Shown here piece after piece: positions 5,984 through 20,792 of a stretch of 64,000 bases of DNA. Positions within the stretch are counted from its first letter, which is position 1, and every line of letters starts with the position of its first letter. Source of the stretch: Rhizobiales bacterium GAS188 (lineage in GTDB: Bacteria; Pseudomonadota; Alphaproteobacteria; Rhizobiales; Beijerinckiaceae). Position numbers and translations under genes: made by a program. The stretch is taken from positions 6,200,001-6,264,000 of the forward strand of contig FNSS01000001.1 in the NCBI GenBank assembly GCA_900104855.1, read 5' to 3'. The notes beneath the pieces are model-generated. The model saw only the letters and a list, made by a program, of their open reading frames with translations, made no database searches and was not told the origin of the DNA.

Positions 5984-6640
5984 TCAGGCCGCCTTGCGTG
6001 CCGGAGTGGACTTCGCGCGTCGTGCGAGGCGCCTCTTGATCGAGGACCACATCGCCTTCATCTCGGCGGCCGCGGCGCCCGACTCGTTCCACTCCGTGAC
6101 ACCGAGACCTGCACGGCTGGCCTCCTGGTAATCGACGCGCGTGAGGATCAACGGCGTGATCAGGCCTCCCATCGCCTCGAGCGCCTCTGCGCCTTGCTCG
6201 ACTCGAGTCGTCTGCTGTGCCGGTGGGCATTGGTTCAGCGCGAAGGCAAAGTCGGCTCGGTGCTCCTTCAGCGCTTTGCGAGTGGTCTCGCTTGCCCATA
6301 GGTCGAAGGCGTTAGGGCGCGCCGGGATGATATTGAGATCGGCTGCCTTCATTGCGGCGACGCTCGCTGCCCCCTCGACGCCGGGCGTGTCGATGATCGC
6401 AAGCGTGAAGCCATTTTTCTCGAGGGCCGCGAGCGTCGGCGCCAAGCGGCCCGCCGTGACCGCCTCTACCGGCAGGTCATCGCGATCGCGCATCGTCGCC
6501 CAGCTCACCAGCGAGCGCTGCGGATCCATGTCGAGCATGAACACACGTTCGCCGGCCTCCATGGCGGCGACCGCAAGCGAAGTGGCAAGCGTGCTTTTTC
6601 CCGATCCCCCTTTTTGCGTGACAAATGCGATTGTGCGCAT
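5984..6640 (-). CDS. ParA-family ATPase, orphan
   Basis: 218-residue P-loop ATPase of the ParA/MinD superfamily. The deviant Walker A QKGGSGKST is at residues 9-17 with the family signature lysine at position 10. Walker B-type TLAIIDTPG is at about residue 80, and the DMDPQ motif follows the second strand. The C-terminus is short and basic (RRLARRAKSTPARKAA), which suits non-specific DNA binding. No ParB, centromere repeats or replication gene is adjacent, so it may position a protein complex or be a plasmid remnant. It is monocistronic as far as visible. Confidence 0.85.
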   Translation of the reverse strand: MRTIAFVTQKGGSGKSTLATSLAVAAMEAGERVFMLDMDPQRSLVSWATMRDRDDLPVEAVTAGRLAPTLAALEKNGFTLAIIDTPGVEGAASVAAMKAADLNIIPARPNAFDLWASETTRKALKEHRADFAFALNQCPPAQQTTRVEQGAEALEAMGGLITPLILTRVDYQEASRAGLGVTEWNESGAAAAEMKAMWSSIKRRLARRAKSTPARKAA

Positions 6641-6830
6641 GAAGTTCTCCGTCCCTCTTCTGCCGGGTTGCTCCCGAATTCAGGGTTAATGATTCGTCAA
6701 GGCTGGCGCTCAAACCCTAACGAATGGTTAGCGAGTCAGCGCAGGCCAAGGGCTGGGATGAGAAGGCAGCCGGCGGTTGCACCGTTGAGGCGCCTCGATG
6801 CATGGCCGGACACCGGGGAGGCGCCTGTGC

Positions 6831-7655
6831 TCAGAGACCTTCGGCAAACTTCATTTCGGCGTAAGTCGCCGTGATCAAGTCGCGGCCGTAAACGCGCTCG
6901 AGGCGGCGCACGATGAAGTGGCCTCGTGCTTTTGATTGAAAGTGGGACATGAAGACGGCGTTGACAGCCGCCCCGGTGGCTGCGCCGACCACCGGTACTG
7001 CTTGCGCCGCAAACTTCTGTGAAACGACGATACCGAAGCGCTGCGCAATCTGCGAGATGACGCGCATGAGGACCGGAGCGCTCTCCTCGACAAACCCACG
7101 CTCGACGGCATACCGGCCAAGGCTGGTCACCGAACGAGCAAGCGTTGCTCTCACCGCGTGATAGCCGATATCGCTGGCTTTGCTGGAGCCCGATGCCCCG
7201 CCATATGCAAGGACTTCAAGGCATGCCAGCGCTGCCTCCGGGTTCGACAGGTCCTCACCCTCCGCGCGGGCAATCTCGGCGATGGCATGCAGCAAGATGC
7301 CGGTCGAGATCGGCAACTCGACGGCGAGAGCCGGCAAGCCGAATGCCCCTCCGGTTGCACCTGTCAGCGTCGCCAGCGCCTTGTGCCAACGCCCGGAACC
7401 ATCCTTCCAGGCGGGCAGTCGAGAGCTGAGCGCCACCCGCAACGAGGCTCGCAGCGCTGCCTCGGTCGCACGCGATGCCGCAAGGCCGATGCCCCTTGGG
7501 ATCAGGCGGTCGAAGAACCCCATCGACTTGCCGAGGAGCCCGGCGAGGCGCGCCGCAAAGCTCTCGCGCTCCAGCGACAGGACGGCCATGCGGAGCGCTG
7601 CGAGGTCAGCCTCGGCAAGGTGGTTCGGAAGGATTTCTCCCTCGAGCGATGGCAC
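6831..7655 (-). CDS. EcsC-family protein
   Basis: 274-residue member of the EcsC family (named after Bacillus EcsC; biochemical role unknown). The glycine/alanine-rich amphipathic helices are characteristic (LTGATGGAFGLPALAVELPISTGILLHAIAEIAR). The central GASGSSKASDIGYHAVRATLA and C-terminal AVPVVGAATGAAVNAVFMSHFQSKARGHFIVRRLE blocks match the family in order. The start is a GTG at 7655 with GGAG ten bases upstream; the frame stays open further upstream without an ATG. It probably associates with membranes. The small coiled-coil membrane protein gene upstream on the same strand may be co-transcribed. Confidence 0.75.
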   Translation of the reverse strand: MPSLEGEILPNHLAEADLAALRMAVLSLERESFAARLAGLLGKSMGFFDRLIPRGIGLAASRATEAALRASLRVALSSRLPAWKDGSGRWHKALATLTGATGGAFGLPALAVELPISTGILLHAIAEIARAEGEDLSNPEAALACLEVLAYGGASGSSKASDIGYHAVRATLARSVTSLGRYAVERGFVEESAPVLMRVISQIAQRFGIVVSQKFAAQAVPVVGAATGAAVNAVFMSHFQSKARGHFIVRRLERVYGRDLITATYAEMKFAEGL

Positions 7656-7781
7656 TTCCTGCTCCGTTGCACCCCGATTTGGCGCTTCACCCCAGGCGCA
7701 AGAGATGGAAACCTGATTGATGTGGCGATCCCGTTTGCTTTGAGCAAGGCGGAGCCCAGGGTCGCAACCGGGCTTGCGCCG

Positions 7782-17835: not shown

Positions 17836-18015
17836 CTATCGGGTCCGCTGATAATCGATGACTCGCACGACCATGTCGGGAAAATCCGTAAGCACCTCAT
17901 CAAGAAACTTCTCGATGAGCGATAGAGAACGATCGTCAGCTGGTTTTTGCGCCGTAACTGATCGCGAAATCGCGCTCTGCCAGATTTGGGGGCGGTAGCG
18001 GACGAGGGAACCTAG
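17836..18015 (-). pseudogene. yaaC-family gene, 3' fragment beyond the insertion
   Basis: On the minus strand the sequence just outside the left CTAG of the insertion encodes SLVRYRPQIWQS and continues for 58 codons to a TAG at 17836-17838 (ending VVRVIDYQRTR). (F)LLxSLVRYRP is the characteristic C-terminal block of YaaC-like proteins. Joined to the fragment at 19156-20074 at the CTAG duplication, it gives an uninterrupted frame reading GSFLLGSLVRYRP. It has no start of its own and is presumably untranslated now. Confidence 0.75.
18012..18015. repeat. Target-site duplication, left copy (CTAG)
   Basis: CTAG immediately outside the left terminal repeat, repeated at 19156-19159. The interrupted yaaC frame is restored when only one copy is kept. 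A 2-bp TA duplication with a longer terminal repeat fits equally well, because CTAG is the same on both strands. Confidence 0.65.
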
Positions 18016-18041
18016 TGGTTAAAATCTGACGCTTGGTACCC
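18016..18041 (+). repeat. Terminal inverted repeat, left
   Basis: Begins TGGTTAAAATCTGACG and ends CTTGGTACCC; matches the reverse complement of 19130-19155 at 24 of 26 positions. Confidence 0.8.
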
Positions 18042-18214
18042 GCGATGCAGGTCCCTAAAAGTGAGAAGCTTCCATGATGCCCGGTGCTGAGAACGCTGCG
18101 GACGCCAATCCTGCCATAGCTCGATCGCCGGTTTTGATCCATCCCTGACATGCGGAGAACGGTGTTGGGGTAGCCTGATTGTCAGTCCTGAATATCCGAT
18201 TACAGACTTCCCAA

Positions 18215-18964
18215 TTAGCCCGGCTCCATGCCTTTGGCCCTGATGACCGAAGTCACTTCCGGGGTGGCAAGAAATTTGATGAATGCCTTGGCGGCTTCGG
18301 GCTGTTTGGAATTGGCGCTGACGGCGGCGGTGATTTGTGAAATAAGATCCAAATCTGGGGGGAACGGGCCGACCAAATCGATTCCGCTTACTGAAAGCAC
18401 TTCACTCATCTGCTGGATTGCAAGCTCAGCCTCCCCATTTGCAACAAACTCCGCGACATTGCCAGACGGCAGGGTCTTGCCCTTAGCCTTGACCTGTTCA
18501 GCAATACCGAGGCGTTCACATGCGGCAATGAAATGCCGCCCGCTTGCTCCGGACGTCACGTACGCGATCGATTTCGCGTTCAGCATCGCGAGCTTAAAGG
18601 CGTCAACTGTGCTAATATCTGGCTTCGGCTGACCCGCACGCACGGCGACGCCGAGGCCCGACCGTGCAATGTTGACGCGGGTTGCTGCTTCGATCCGACT
18701 GCCCTTGACGAGCGCATCCATGTTTGACGAAATCAGCAGGGCGACGTCGAAGTTGTCACCGCGCAGGATCGCTTCTTGCAGGATCGGGGAGCCTTCGTAC
18801 GCGATTGAGAGCTTATGGCTAGTGTTGCGTTCAAATTGGGAAGCAATTTCGGCGACGATTGGTTTTGCGCCGTTTGTAATCATGAGCTTGAGCTCGGCGC
18901 CATTAGCATCTTTAATTGTAGCAGCAGCAAAAAGGAAAAGCAGCGCCACTGCGATCCTGGCCAT
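18215..18964 (-). CDS. ModA-like periplasmic substrate-binding protein (element passenger)
   Basis: 249-residue binding protein of the SBP_bac_11/ModA-like group. Residues 1-23 are a signal peptide (ARIAVALLFLFAAATIKDANGA). The mature part begins ELKLMITNGAKPIVAEIASQFERNTSH, then FDVALLISSNMDALV, SIAYVTSGASGRHFIAACERLGI and the C-terminal PEAAKAFIKFLATPEVTSVIRAKGMEPG. All of these follow the molybdate-binding fold, but the oxyanion-binding serines are not conserved clearly enough to assign molybdate. No permease or ATPase is adjacent. It is the only gene of the insertion element and is visibly lower in GC than flanking genes. The ATG follows GGGAGAGTTGAA. Confidence 0.85.
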   Translation of the reverse strand: MARIAVALLFLFAAATIKDANGAELKLMITNGAKPIVAEIASQFERNTSHKLSIAYEGSPILQEAILRGDNFDVALLISSNMDALVKGSRIEAATRVNIARSGLGVAVRAGQPKPDISTVDAFKLAMLNAKSIAYVTSGASGRHFIAACERLGIAEQVKAKGKTLPSGNVAEFVANGEAELAIQQMSEVLSVSGIDLVGPFPPDLDLISQITAAVSANSKQPEAAKAFIKFLATPEVTSVIRAKGMEPG

Positions 18965-19129
18965 TTCAACTCTCCCTGAGCCAACAAATCGGTGCTTATT
19001 CTAACTCATATCTTAGCCCATCTCGGAGGGCTCGCAACCAAGAGTGTCAGACGGCGTTCCGGATTCCATTTCAGCCATTCACACGGCCGCGCGGGAACGG
19101 CAGCAAGGAGTCGAGAGAGGGCATTCGCA

Positions 19130-19155
19130 GGGTACCAAGCGTCAGATTCTATCCA
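19130..19155 (-). repeat. Terminal inverted repeat, right
   Basis: Reverse complement begins TGGATAGAATCTGACG and ends CTTGGTACCC. Together with CTAG it supplies the codons LVDRI-stop that now end the truncated yaaC frame. Confidence 0.8.
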
Positions 19156-19159
19156 CTAG
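19156..19159. repeat. Target-site duplication, right copy (CTAG)
   Basis: Second CTAG, directly outside the right terminal repeat; pairs with 18012-18015. Confidence 0.65.
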
Positions 19160-20074
19160 CAGGAAGCTCCCTAGAAACTGTAGAGAATATTCCGACAGCT
19201 TTACGCCGCCGATCGGCTGCATGACATACGTAGCGCTCGATCCGACATAGCCTCCAGACAACGGAGGAAGGATTACGGATGCTGGACCGAACGTAGAATG
19301 GGCGCCCATCATGACTCGCGCGCTGGCAAATCCGTTGTTGTTGACCTGAACGAGATTGGCTTCAGAGAAGTCGTTCTGATCCTGGTTGGCCGAATTGTCG
19401 AAGACCAGAACCGCTTTTCCCCAAGCATGTGACGCTTCGATGAAGTGCCAATTTTCCAAAAACGGATAATCGGTCCGCCATCTCCGTGCAGCTGCGATCA
19501 AGCTCGTTCGGTCGGTAAATAGAACCGGATCGTCGATGCGCAGCCTACATTGGCCGACGTTCGGCGATTCGAAATCGAGCATGATGGGAGCCGCTTTCGC
19601 CGACGAGCCGAAGGTCTGGCTGAATTTGTCCGCCACACTTGGGATGCGTGACAATACGTCCGTGATAGAAATCCGTTGCGCGCTCAACCCCGCCGCCCCA
19701 TCGAACGGCTTTTCGAACCAGCGCGGCATCGAGTTCTCAAAGTACCAGATTCGGCCCAGCGGAGCGATGGCGTCATTGAATTCCTGAAACGTACCCGTGT
19801 TTTCGCAACGTAGTAAGAGCCTTTCGACACCCTCATTGAGTGGTGTGACATCCGCAAGTGCGTGCGCGCGGGCCAGCGTCGAGAGCGACACGATTTTCCT
19901 CGCCACGATGACGGCCTGCGCGAATGCAACGACGCCATAGTAAATTAGGAGCGGCTTGATTTGGATGGGCGCAGCAGCGGCCGCTTCAAAAAACAACCTG
20001 CCTTGTTGAACGCACACCGCAATTTCTCGCGCAATACCATCGTTCGGCCTCCGACCCGTTGATCGGTCGATCAA
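19156..20074 (-). pseudogene. yaaC-family gene, main fragment (5' truncated, 3' interrupted)
   Basis: Minus-strand frame (TTG at 20074 is the first possible start) reading AREIAVCVQQGRLFFEAAAAAP, then IKPLLIYYGVVAFAQAVIVARKIVSLSTL, the central core of the YaaC-like family (function unknown). The usual N-terminal 30-odd residues with the WxxLxxYES block are absent because the sequence upstream belongs to a dioxygenase gene. The C-terminus is cut by the insertion element at GSFLL, and the frame now stops inside the element's repeat at 19142. Stitched to 17836-18011 it would encode 364 residues. Probably inactive. Confidence 0.75.
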
Positions 20075-20792
20075 CTGATAAATCGGGACGTTCCTTGCGG
20101 ATTATCTCGGCCACGAACAGACCGTCGATCAACGCCGACTCGCCGCCTTCCGCGTCGTTGCGGATGCAATGGAGCGTCGTGTAGCCCGGTTGAGGATAGC
20201 GGTACGGGTTGTCCACGTGAGGCTCGAGGGCGCGTGGTGTCATGCTCAGATCATAAGCTTCGCCGGTGCCCAATGCCTTGATGTCCTCAATGTCGCCGTT
20301 GTTGGTGATGCGCGTGTAGCCGACGAGATTGAGAAACTCGCGACTGCCCTGGTCGACAGTGGGAATGCCGCGCACCAACACGAAGCCTAGGCGAGCGAGA
20401 TCATTCAACATCGCCAAGATTCTTTTCGGATCCGCCTTGAGCGCGCCGAGCCCATACCAGGGAAGCGTCTTGAGGCTCGCATTCCAAGGTTGCTTTAGGC
20501 CGACAAGCTCCTGGGTGAAGGGGTGCTGCGCCGCCTCGCGAAGCTTCCCGAGAGAGTACAGCGCGCGATGGCCATCGCTGAAAGCGATCTCGATGTCGCT
20601 ACCGCCGTTCTTGACGTCGGCGATTTTGACATCCAGTGGAATAAGATCGGCATCCTGCAGCTTATGGCCGGTCTTCGGGTCACGGTAGGCCGGATCGCTG
20701 CTGCTTTCGCGCAACCAGAATGCATGAAAGACATGGTTGAACCCGTCCGCGTCGGCAAGACTCAATCGGGTTCCGAGATTTTCGACGTCCAT
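19986..20792 (-). pseudogene. Gamma-butyrobetaine dioxygenase-like gene, 3' truncated
   Basis: Fe(II)/2-oxoglutarate dioxygenase of the TauD/BBOX family. The N-terminal zinc-type beta-domain is present (GFNHVFHAFWLRESSSDPAYRDPKTGHKLQ), then GFVLVRGIPTVDQGSREFLNLVGYTRITNNGD and the metal-binding HxD motif in EPHVDNPYRYPQPGYTTLHC. Similarity stops after FVAEIIRKERPDL at about residue 242. The following residues are yaaC sequence read in another frame, so the C-terminal half with the distal iron-binding histidine and the 2-oxoglutarate arginine is missing. GGAGGATTCTT precedes the ATG, so it may still be translated, but catalysis is not expected. Confidence 0.75.
20058..20075. other. Palindrome at the dioxygenase/yaaC junction
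   Basis: Arms GTTGATCG and CGATCAAC around GT lie within 20 bases of the point where dioxygenase similarity ends and yaaC similarity begins. It could be a recombination hot spot or simply native yaaC sequence. Confidence 0.35.

Follow-up and report, generated by a model that had tools for sequence, protein, structure and literature searches.

MIC231, which goes with IS231 of the IS4 family, carries a passenger gene, and the term mobile insertion cassette (MIC) is also used for elements of Xanthomonas, whose ends are of the Tn3 type. Transporter ISs (tISs) keep their own transposase beside their passenger genes, and MITEs of the IS630 family exist, which are non-autonomous and have IS630-like ends. 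In the excerpts of the literature consulted, the MICs of Bacillus cereus have IS-type inverted repeats, are without a transposase and can possibly be activated by a cognate transposase (PMC3129680, PMC3281130, PMC4133298), MIC231 being named in PMC2266710. The same excerpts present tISs as IS derivatives with passenger genes (PMC9330008, PMC3129680), the TIMEs of Pseudomonas, of Tn3 type, as generating mosaic non-autonomous transposons (PMC4133298), and MITEs as small (approx. 30-300 bp), multicopy and devoid of a transposase gene (PMC4133298). Passenger-only cassettes are tied to Bacillus cereus in these excerpts, the name IS630 does not occur in PMC4133298, and no report of passenger cassettes with IS630 ends was found in the open-licence literature.

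Here we analyzed a stretch of 64,000 nucleotides from Rhizobiales bacterium GAS188 (the window), in which a preliminary description had proposed that a passenger-only element of the mobile-insertion-cassette kind splits a yaaC frame. This proposal is upheld. Two inverted repeats, at 18012-18041 and 19130-19159, are identical at 28 of 30 positions including CTAG and at 24 of 26 without it, which confirms the repeats as first described, and CTAG stands at both edges (18012-18015 and 19156-19159, both unstranded). By a simple binomial estimate, about 2e-8 such pairs would be expected by chance in the 2.2-kb region. The left end (18015-18068, plus strand), a 28-bp terminal inverted repeat followed by a subterminal stretch, is of a type that we call X and scores 50.2 bits with model R2 vs 40.9 with model R3, being itself among the 15 ends that built R2. 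The right end (19093-19156, minus strand) is organized in the same way, is of the Y type and scores 56.0 bits with R3 vs 29.5 with R2, being among the 16 ends that built R3. As already stated in the preliminary description, the element contains no transposase: tblastn with four IS630 transposases was negative inside it. It is single-copy in the GAS188 genome. The recent movement formerly suggested is not supported for this copy, as neither the 3 other genomes of the genus contained a second copy nor the plasmid collection a match of the whole cassette.

The CTAG at both edges had been read as a duplication of this tetranucleotide, but at this site a 4-bp CTAG duplication is indistinguishable from a 2-bp TA duplication of an element with ends G...C. 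The title of a 1991 paper of Tenzen and Ohtsubo, cited in PMC2170065, names TA in CTAG. IS630-family elements insert at TA and duplicate it, according to the part of PMC2170065 consulted. As the ends are of IS630 type (see below), the duplicated unit is more likely TA within CTAG than CTAG itself, and the TA rule together with that title makes TA the best reading, with a cassette of 1142 bp (18015-19156) plus the duplicated TA. If so, C-TA at 18012-18014 belongs to the left flank, the element starts at G 18015, and the TA at 19157-19158, in the right CTAG, is the presumed second copy of the target.

When the element is removed and one CTAG is kept, an open yaaC-family frame of 364 codons appears, from the TTG at 20074 to 17836; computed again, it is the frame formerly described, with the same GSFLL-G-SLVRYRP junction. 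Its 5' part (19160-20074, minus strand, Pfam YaaC E 8e-14) holds codons 1-305 of the joined frame, the 3' part runs to the stop at 17836-18011 on the same strand, and one CTAG completes the frame. An alignment of the junction with orthologues had been proposed as a check, and the orthologue of genome G374 (L123) passes it without a gap: 148 of 348 positions are identical (43%), none of the 3 gap positions falls at the junction, and LQFLGSFLL-GSLVRYRP in the window faces LLFLGSFLL-SSLVRYRP in G374. Only two of the 397 genomes of the taxonomic family, GAS188 and G374, match the joined frame at E<=1e-10. The target itself may have been incomplete. It enters the Pfam YaaC profile at position 36 of 307, its first 13 residues fall outside the G374 alignment, and a stop lies shortly upstream with no clear start of its own, while the G374 orthologue is open for 41 codons ahead of the alignment and has candidate start codons 35, 31 and 2 codons from its edge. 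The frame also overlaps the end of a TauD-type gene, of which the match covers only positions 27-146 of the 267 of the profile. In the region 19986-20792 and upstream of 20074, the TauD/GBBH-type gene and yaaC look fused by a deletion, both being truncated. To judge from the sequence, the target may already have been a 5'-truncated relic before the insertion, the order of events being ambiguous.

The longest ORF inside the cassette (18215-18964, minus strand) encodes a ModA-like solute-binding protein of 249 aa (SBP_bac_11, E 2e-43), whose hydrophobic N-terminus resembles, by eye, a signal peptide. The preliminary description had called this ModA-like protein the only gene inside. It is indeed the longest ORF, but two further ORFs of 134 and 111 aa, outside the Pfam scan, lie antisense to it, and its score with NCBIfam modA (57.0 bits) is below the cut-off of 62.5. 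The protein matches 8 solved sequences at E<=0.001, the best with E 1.7e-6, and every one of them is a molybdate-binding protein; since the score stays under the modA cut-off, molybdate as its ligand is not established. A consensus search found no sigma-70-like promoter for the gene. We also considered this protein class as a recurrent cargo and ruled it out: among the matches listed, none of the 29 fetched loci outside GAS188 that hold relatives of the protein has the ends described here. A lone solute-binding protein had been thought an unusual cargo; it is not unique, since another GAS188 segment bounded by such ends (L013) holds three ABC_sub_bind proteins.

To relate the ends to known ISs, we used R1, a sequence-only model built from eight ends. 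With 150 of 321 candidates scored in the GAS188 genome, 26 passed E<=1. The eight sequences from which R1 was built rank first; most of those that follow are terminal sequences of ISs that measure about 1.15 kb and encode 359- or 366-aa transposases, or of truncated copies of these. No transposase ORF was found behind one of the matches (L046). The 359- and 366-aa transposases pass the NCBIfam IS630 model with 250 bits, the cut-off being 100. The ends of the window cassette share 23-26 of 30 bases with the ends of IS630-family ISs of GAS188 and Methylocystis rosea (L087 and L106 with both ends, L036 and the truncated L035 with one), vs only 7-8 of 30 with an unrelated 9-copy IS630. In addition, the outermost codons of the right end read GYQASDSIH-stop, where the transposase terminus reads GHQVLDSIH-stop. 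Judged by these alignments, the ends of the window cassette are of IS630 type.

The 359-aa transposase has 11 matches in GAS188, 8 of them without a stop and covering at least 354 of the 359 residues. A relative at E<=1e-60 is present in 6 of the 13 genomes with ends (GAS188 included) vs 1 of 13 without (one-sided p 0.037), a comparison in which one of the six positive genomes has a partial match and another a match with a stop, the controls were picked non-randomly from a listing, two positives and the sole control hit share a genus, and the genomes are related. In the other 7 genomes with ends, the queried transposase has no close relative, which argues against a close tie or else points to loss or to a different mover. 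No autonomous IS with the subterminal X and Y sequences was found, and the 359-/366-aa IS630 elements are our best guess for the cognate ISs. The search with the terminus that had been suggested earlier thus delivered related elements and candidate IS630 parents but no other copy of the window cassette. A 344-aa IS630 located beside the end of L014 was rejected as parent: its ends, TTACTCACCGG, are unrelated, and it landed beside that end. It has 9 copies (8 at 100%, one at 99%). At L014 itself, a single Y-like end lies at 6419, with this unrelated IS inserted adjacent to it at 6653-7687.

Ends of this kind are not restricted to the window. A 30-base end consensus matched 22 of 72,556 plasmid records at E<=1, a degenerate end pattern found 6 stretches in the genome collection, and R1, scored on 24 candidates per genome, hit at least 13 of 297 genomes of the order with E<=1e-4. 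Searches of the fetched loci with R1, R2 and R3 delineated 22 elements with facing ends, from 102 bp to 11,965 bp, of which 14 have CTAG at both edges and 8 lack it at one or both. Their hosts are Mesorhizobium, Rhizobium, Sinorhizobium, Phyllobacterium, Microvirga, Methylobacterium and Paeniroseomonas, as well as GAS188 and other genomes of its order. The boundaries of L015, L095, L098, L118 and L145 rest partly on weak or CTAG-less ends, and the long pairs L013, L015, L102 and L145 may each be two separate elements. Ends that had no partner within the fetched stretch are outside this count (L014, L083, L085, L086, L096, L097, L100, L104, L107, L109/L110, L115-L117, L119-L121, L146, L147 and L150); L149, a second copy of the L099 cassette, L084, a second copy of that of L093, and L108, a part of L145, were counted once with these.

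No IS630 transposase was found by tblastn in any of the 22 elements, and none of 32 ORFs Pfam-scanned inside paired elements had a DDE transposase domain, a set with no ORF from L145 and L148 and with ORFs of at least 80 aa only partly covered in L013, L015, L016, L081, L098, L102 and L118. The only recombinase-type domains among these 32 belong to IS91- and XerC-type proteins of L013. The cargo changes from element to element: TetR and an aldo/keto reductase (L016), a HAD hydrolase (L105), an O-methyltransferase (L103), a SnoaL-like protein (L094), two AraC-type regulators (L101), an ankyrin protein (L093), a glyoxalase (L082), a Crp-type regulator (L081), an AAA ATPase with a partner (L095), a sulfotransferase (L112) and an alpha/beta hydrolase (L114); some scanned ORFs (L099, L098, L111 and others) had no Pfam match. 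On the evidence of sequence, these elements are a family with shared ends and changing cargo, scattered in soil and plant bacteria.

Four loci deserve a separate mention. In GAS188, L013:589-6847 (G000 C1:5515588-5521846) has facing ends around the three ABC_sub_bind proteins, a XerC-like integrase and an IS91-type transposase, and L015:1426-6984 (G000 C1:4649425-4654983) has facing ends, the left one weak (CGAG), around a GroEL-type chaperonin and two Hsp20 proteins. In S. sojae pSJ05684b (L145:445-12409), X and Y ends 12 kb apart enclose an apparent operon for sugar or inositol uptake and breakdown (ORFs read by eye). In M. nodulans pMNOD03 (L148:4001-4102), a 102-bp element has both ends and CTAG at each edge and is MITE-sized.

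Beyond the 30-nt repeat, two recurring subterminal stretches, X and Y, extend the similarity over about 60 bp; we sorted ends by eye into these two types to build R2 (X) and R3 (Y). According to the R2/R3 scores of each end, 15 of the 22 elements combine a clear X end with a clear Y end; 10 of these, the window cassette included, agree by construction because both their ends built the models. Independent support comes from both ends of L113, the left end of L015 and the right ends of L095, L098 and L145. Against a strict X/Y rule, both ends score slightly higher as Y than as X in L093, L111, L114 and L118; L112 and L148 lean weakly to X plus Y, and the scores of L016 are ambiguous. Reading the element layouts, we saw no rule for the orientation of the cargo relative to X and Y. 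When 20 of the 22 elements were compared all against all by blastn (E<=1e-6), together with 17 single-ended loci, the sequence they share was concentrated at the ends, in stretches reaching 54-61 bp with 93-98% identity (L094-L108, 59 bp at 98%; L105-L104, 61 bp at 97%; L081-L086, 55 bp at 98%). Few exceptions were noticed, namely the Crp-type cargo common to L081 and L086, 166 bp at the end of L117/L118, two pairs with 144 and 154 bp in common at 71%, and repeats inside single elements, while L109 and L110 are alike throughout, being one locus in two genomes. The Y subterminal motif CGACCCANNGCGGNCATTC, with at most one mismatch, occurs at 14 sites of the GAS188 genome (0 for the reversed-pattern control); since 12 of the 14 lie apart from the elements delineated here, the motif is a dispersed repeat as well.

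Relatives of the window cassette were seen at different sites. A 740-bp Sinorhizobium cassette is 100% identical in CCBAU 05631 (L099) and SMH12 (L149), with unmatched flanks. Of the plasmid records that match it, 56 in all, 7 contain at least 80% of it: four have it at site A and two at site B, where the copies are identical, and one (NGR234) has a copy at site C, with 94% identity. In S. americanum the cargo of this cassette lies free of such ends, R1 giving no match there, and aligns over 569 bp at 87%. On a Sphingobium plasmid, a sequence homologous to site A crosses the junction at 71% identity without a gap and has no TA there. At site B the edges read CTAG on one side and CTAT on the right, a pair that favours a TA duplication, unless a base has changed; no full empty site was found for it, pNGR234a matching the left flank only, and in the search for an empty site of L101 only its own record matched. 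The L094 cassette splits a VirA-like frame that is uninterrupted in two Rhizobium plasmids, where the site reads GTAG and GAAG. That these uninterrupted homologues (GTAG, GAAG, and no TA in Sphingobium) have no CTAG at the site counts against the explanation that we find best. On pNGR234b of NGR234, another end of the family directly adjoins the 740-bp cassette in head-to-tail orientation, no TA separating the two (L153:2238-2239), an arrangement that is perhaps a tandem or a step in capture.

That explanation, which we regard as likely, is that the window element is a non-autonomous cassette with IS630-type ends, belongs to the shared-end family and is moved in trans by a resident IS630 transposase. 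Resident autonomous ISs with related ends would supply an IS630-family transposase that, once bound to the terminal repeats, would excise the cassette and insert it at a TA, CTAG being the preferred context; in the window, the target TA would have lain inside the yaaC frame. Within the family, the outer ends would be retained and the enclosed gene exchanged, and new cassettes would presumably originate where a transposase pairs ends on either side of a host gene. The anatomy of the locus, the restored frame, the IS630-type ends and the resident transposase genes are direct observations, as are the ends shared around unrelated cargo and the related cassette that is identical at different sites; movement in trans, the mechanism of capture and any benefit of the cargo are what we infer from them.

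The cassettes might instead form a separate transposon family with its own, unrecognised transposase, their likeness to IS630 being a distant kinship and the resident IS630 enzymes being unable to move them. The subterminal motifs that the cassettes share and the examined IS630 ISs lack would fit this, as would the 7 of 13 genomes with ends that have no close relative of the queried transposase. However, the 30-nt ends align base for base with those of IS630 ISs, CTAG and orientation included, and the 32 scanned ORFs (L145 and L148 being outside the scan) yielded no DDE domain, with L013 offering IS91- and XerC-like proteins only; we consider a separate family unlikely. Still less probable is a one-off event, in which a decayed IS630 copy outside any cassette family had its transposase replaced by chance by the solute-binding protein gene. 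In favour of such an event, the window cassette occurs once and a relative carrying this cargo was not found, but related ends bound unrelated open cargo genes in several genera and an identical Sinorhizobium cassette sits at two sites, and this reading is largely refuted because the ends are shared with other cassettes. That the gene is native, with repeats and CTAG being coincidence or regulatory palindromes, has nothing in its favour beyond the single copy; the probability of the repeat pair by chance (~2e-8) and the restored frame, matched by the G374 orthologue, refute it, and we give it next to no credence.

Its IS-family inverted repeats, passenger gene and flanking target duplication, together with the lack of a transposase, place the element best among the mobile insertion cassettes, as one with ends of IS630 type for which movement in trans is predicted. 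Like MIC231, it combines IS-type inverted repeats with the lack of a transposase, but it differs in its IS630/Tc1-mariner type ends, its TA or CTAG target, the X and Y stretches, its occurrence in Alphaproteobacteria and the many unrelated cargos of its relatives. It resembles the IS630 family in its terminal repeats, probably its target sequence, and the transposase-like C-terminal codons of its right end, yet unlike an IS630-family IS it encodes no IS630 transposase. Like a tIS it carries a passenger, but it has no transposase of its own; like the Xanthomonas MICs and the Pseudomonas TIMEs it is non-autonomous, but those have Tn3-type ends. With its 1142 bp, single copy and open gene it is no MITE, a size class to which the 102-bp L148 element would correspond, and, unlike a composite transposon, it is flanked by two yaaC pieces and not by two full ISs. 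As far as we found within the open-licence literature, three features are new: ends of IS630 type, the end stretches X and Y, and the wide range of cargo exchanged.

More broadly, the ~60-bp end modules, which usually come as an X and a Y, could constitute in Alphaproteobacteria an open system of gene capture and shuffling that uses transposases of IS630/Tc1-mariner type, a proposal that we put forward tentatively, with more doubt than confidence, and with slightly more doubt still because 4 of the 22 elements lean to Y at both ends. If it is true, any stretch between two ends, from a small gene to a 12-kb catabolic operon, would become a mobile cassette, and the end modules would serve DDE transposition somewhat as gene cassettes serve integrons. 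Such a family would be an overlooked route for accessory genes such as regulators, enzymes, binding proteins and chaperones, often one gene at a time, and would span rhizobial and methylobacterial plasmids and chromosomes. Annotation easily misses these cassettes because there is no transposase to find, but their defined ends make the family searchable and testable.
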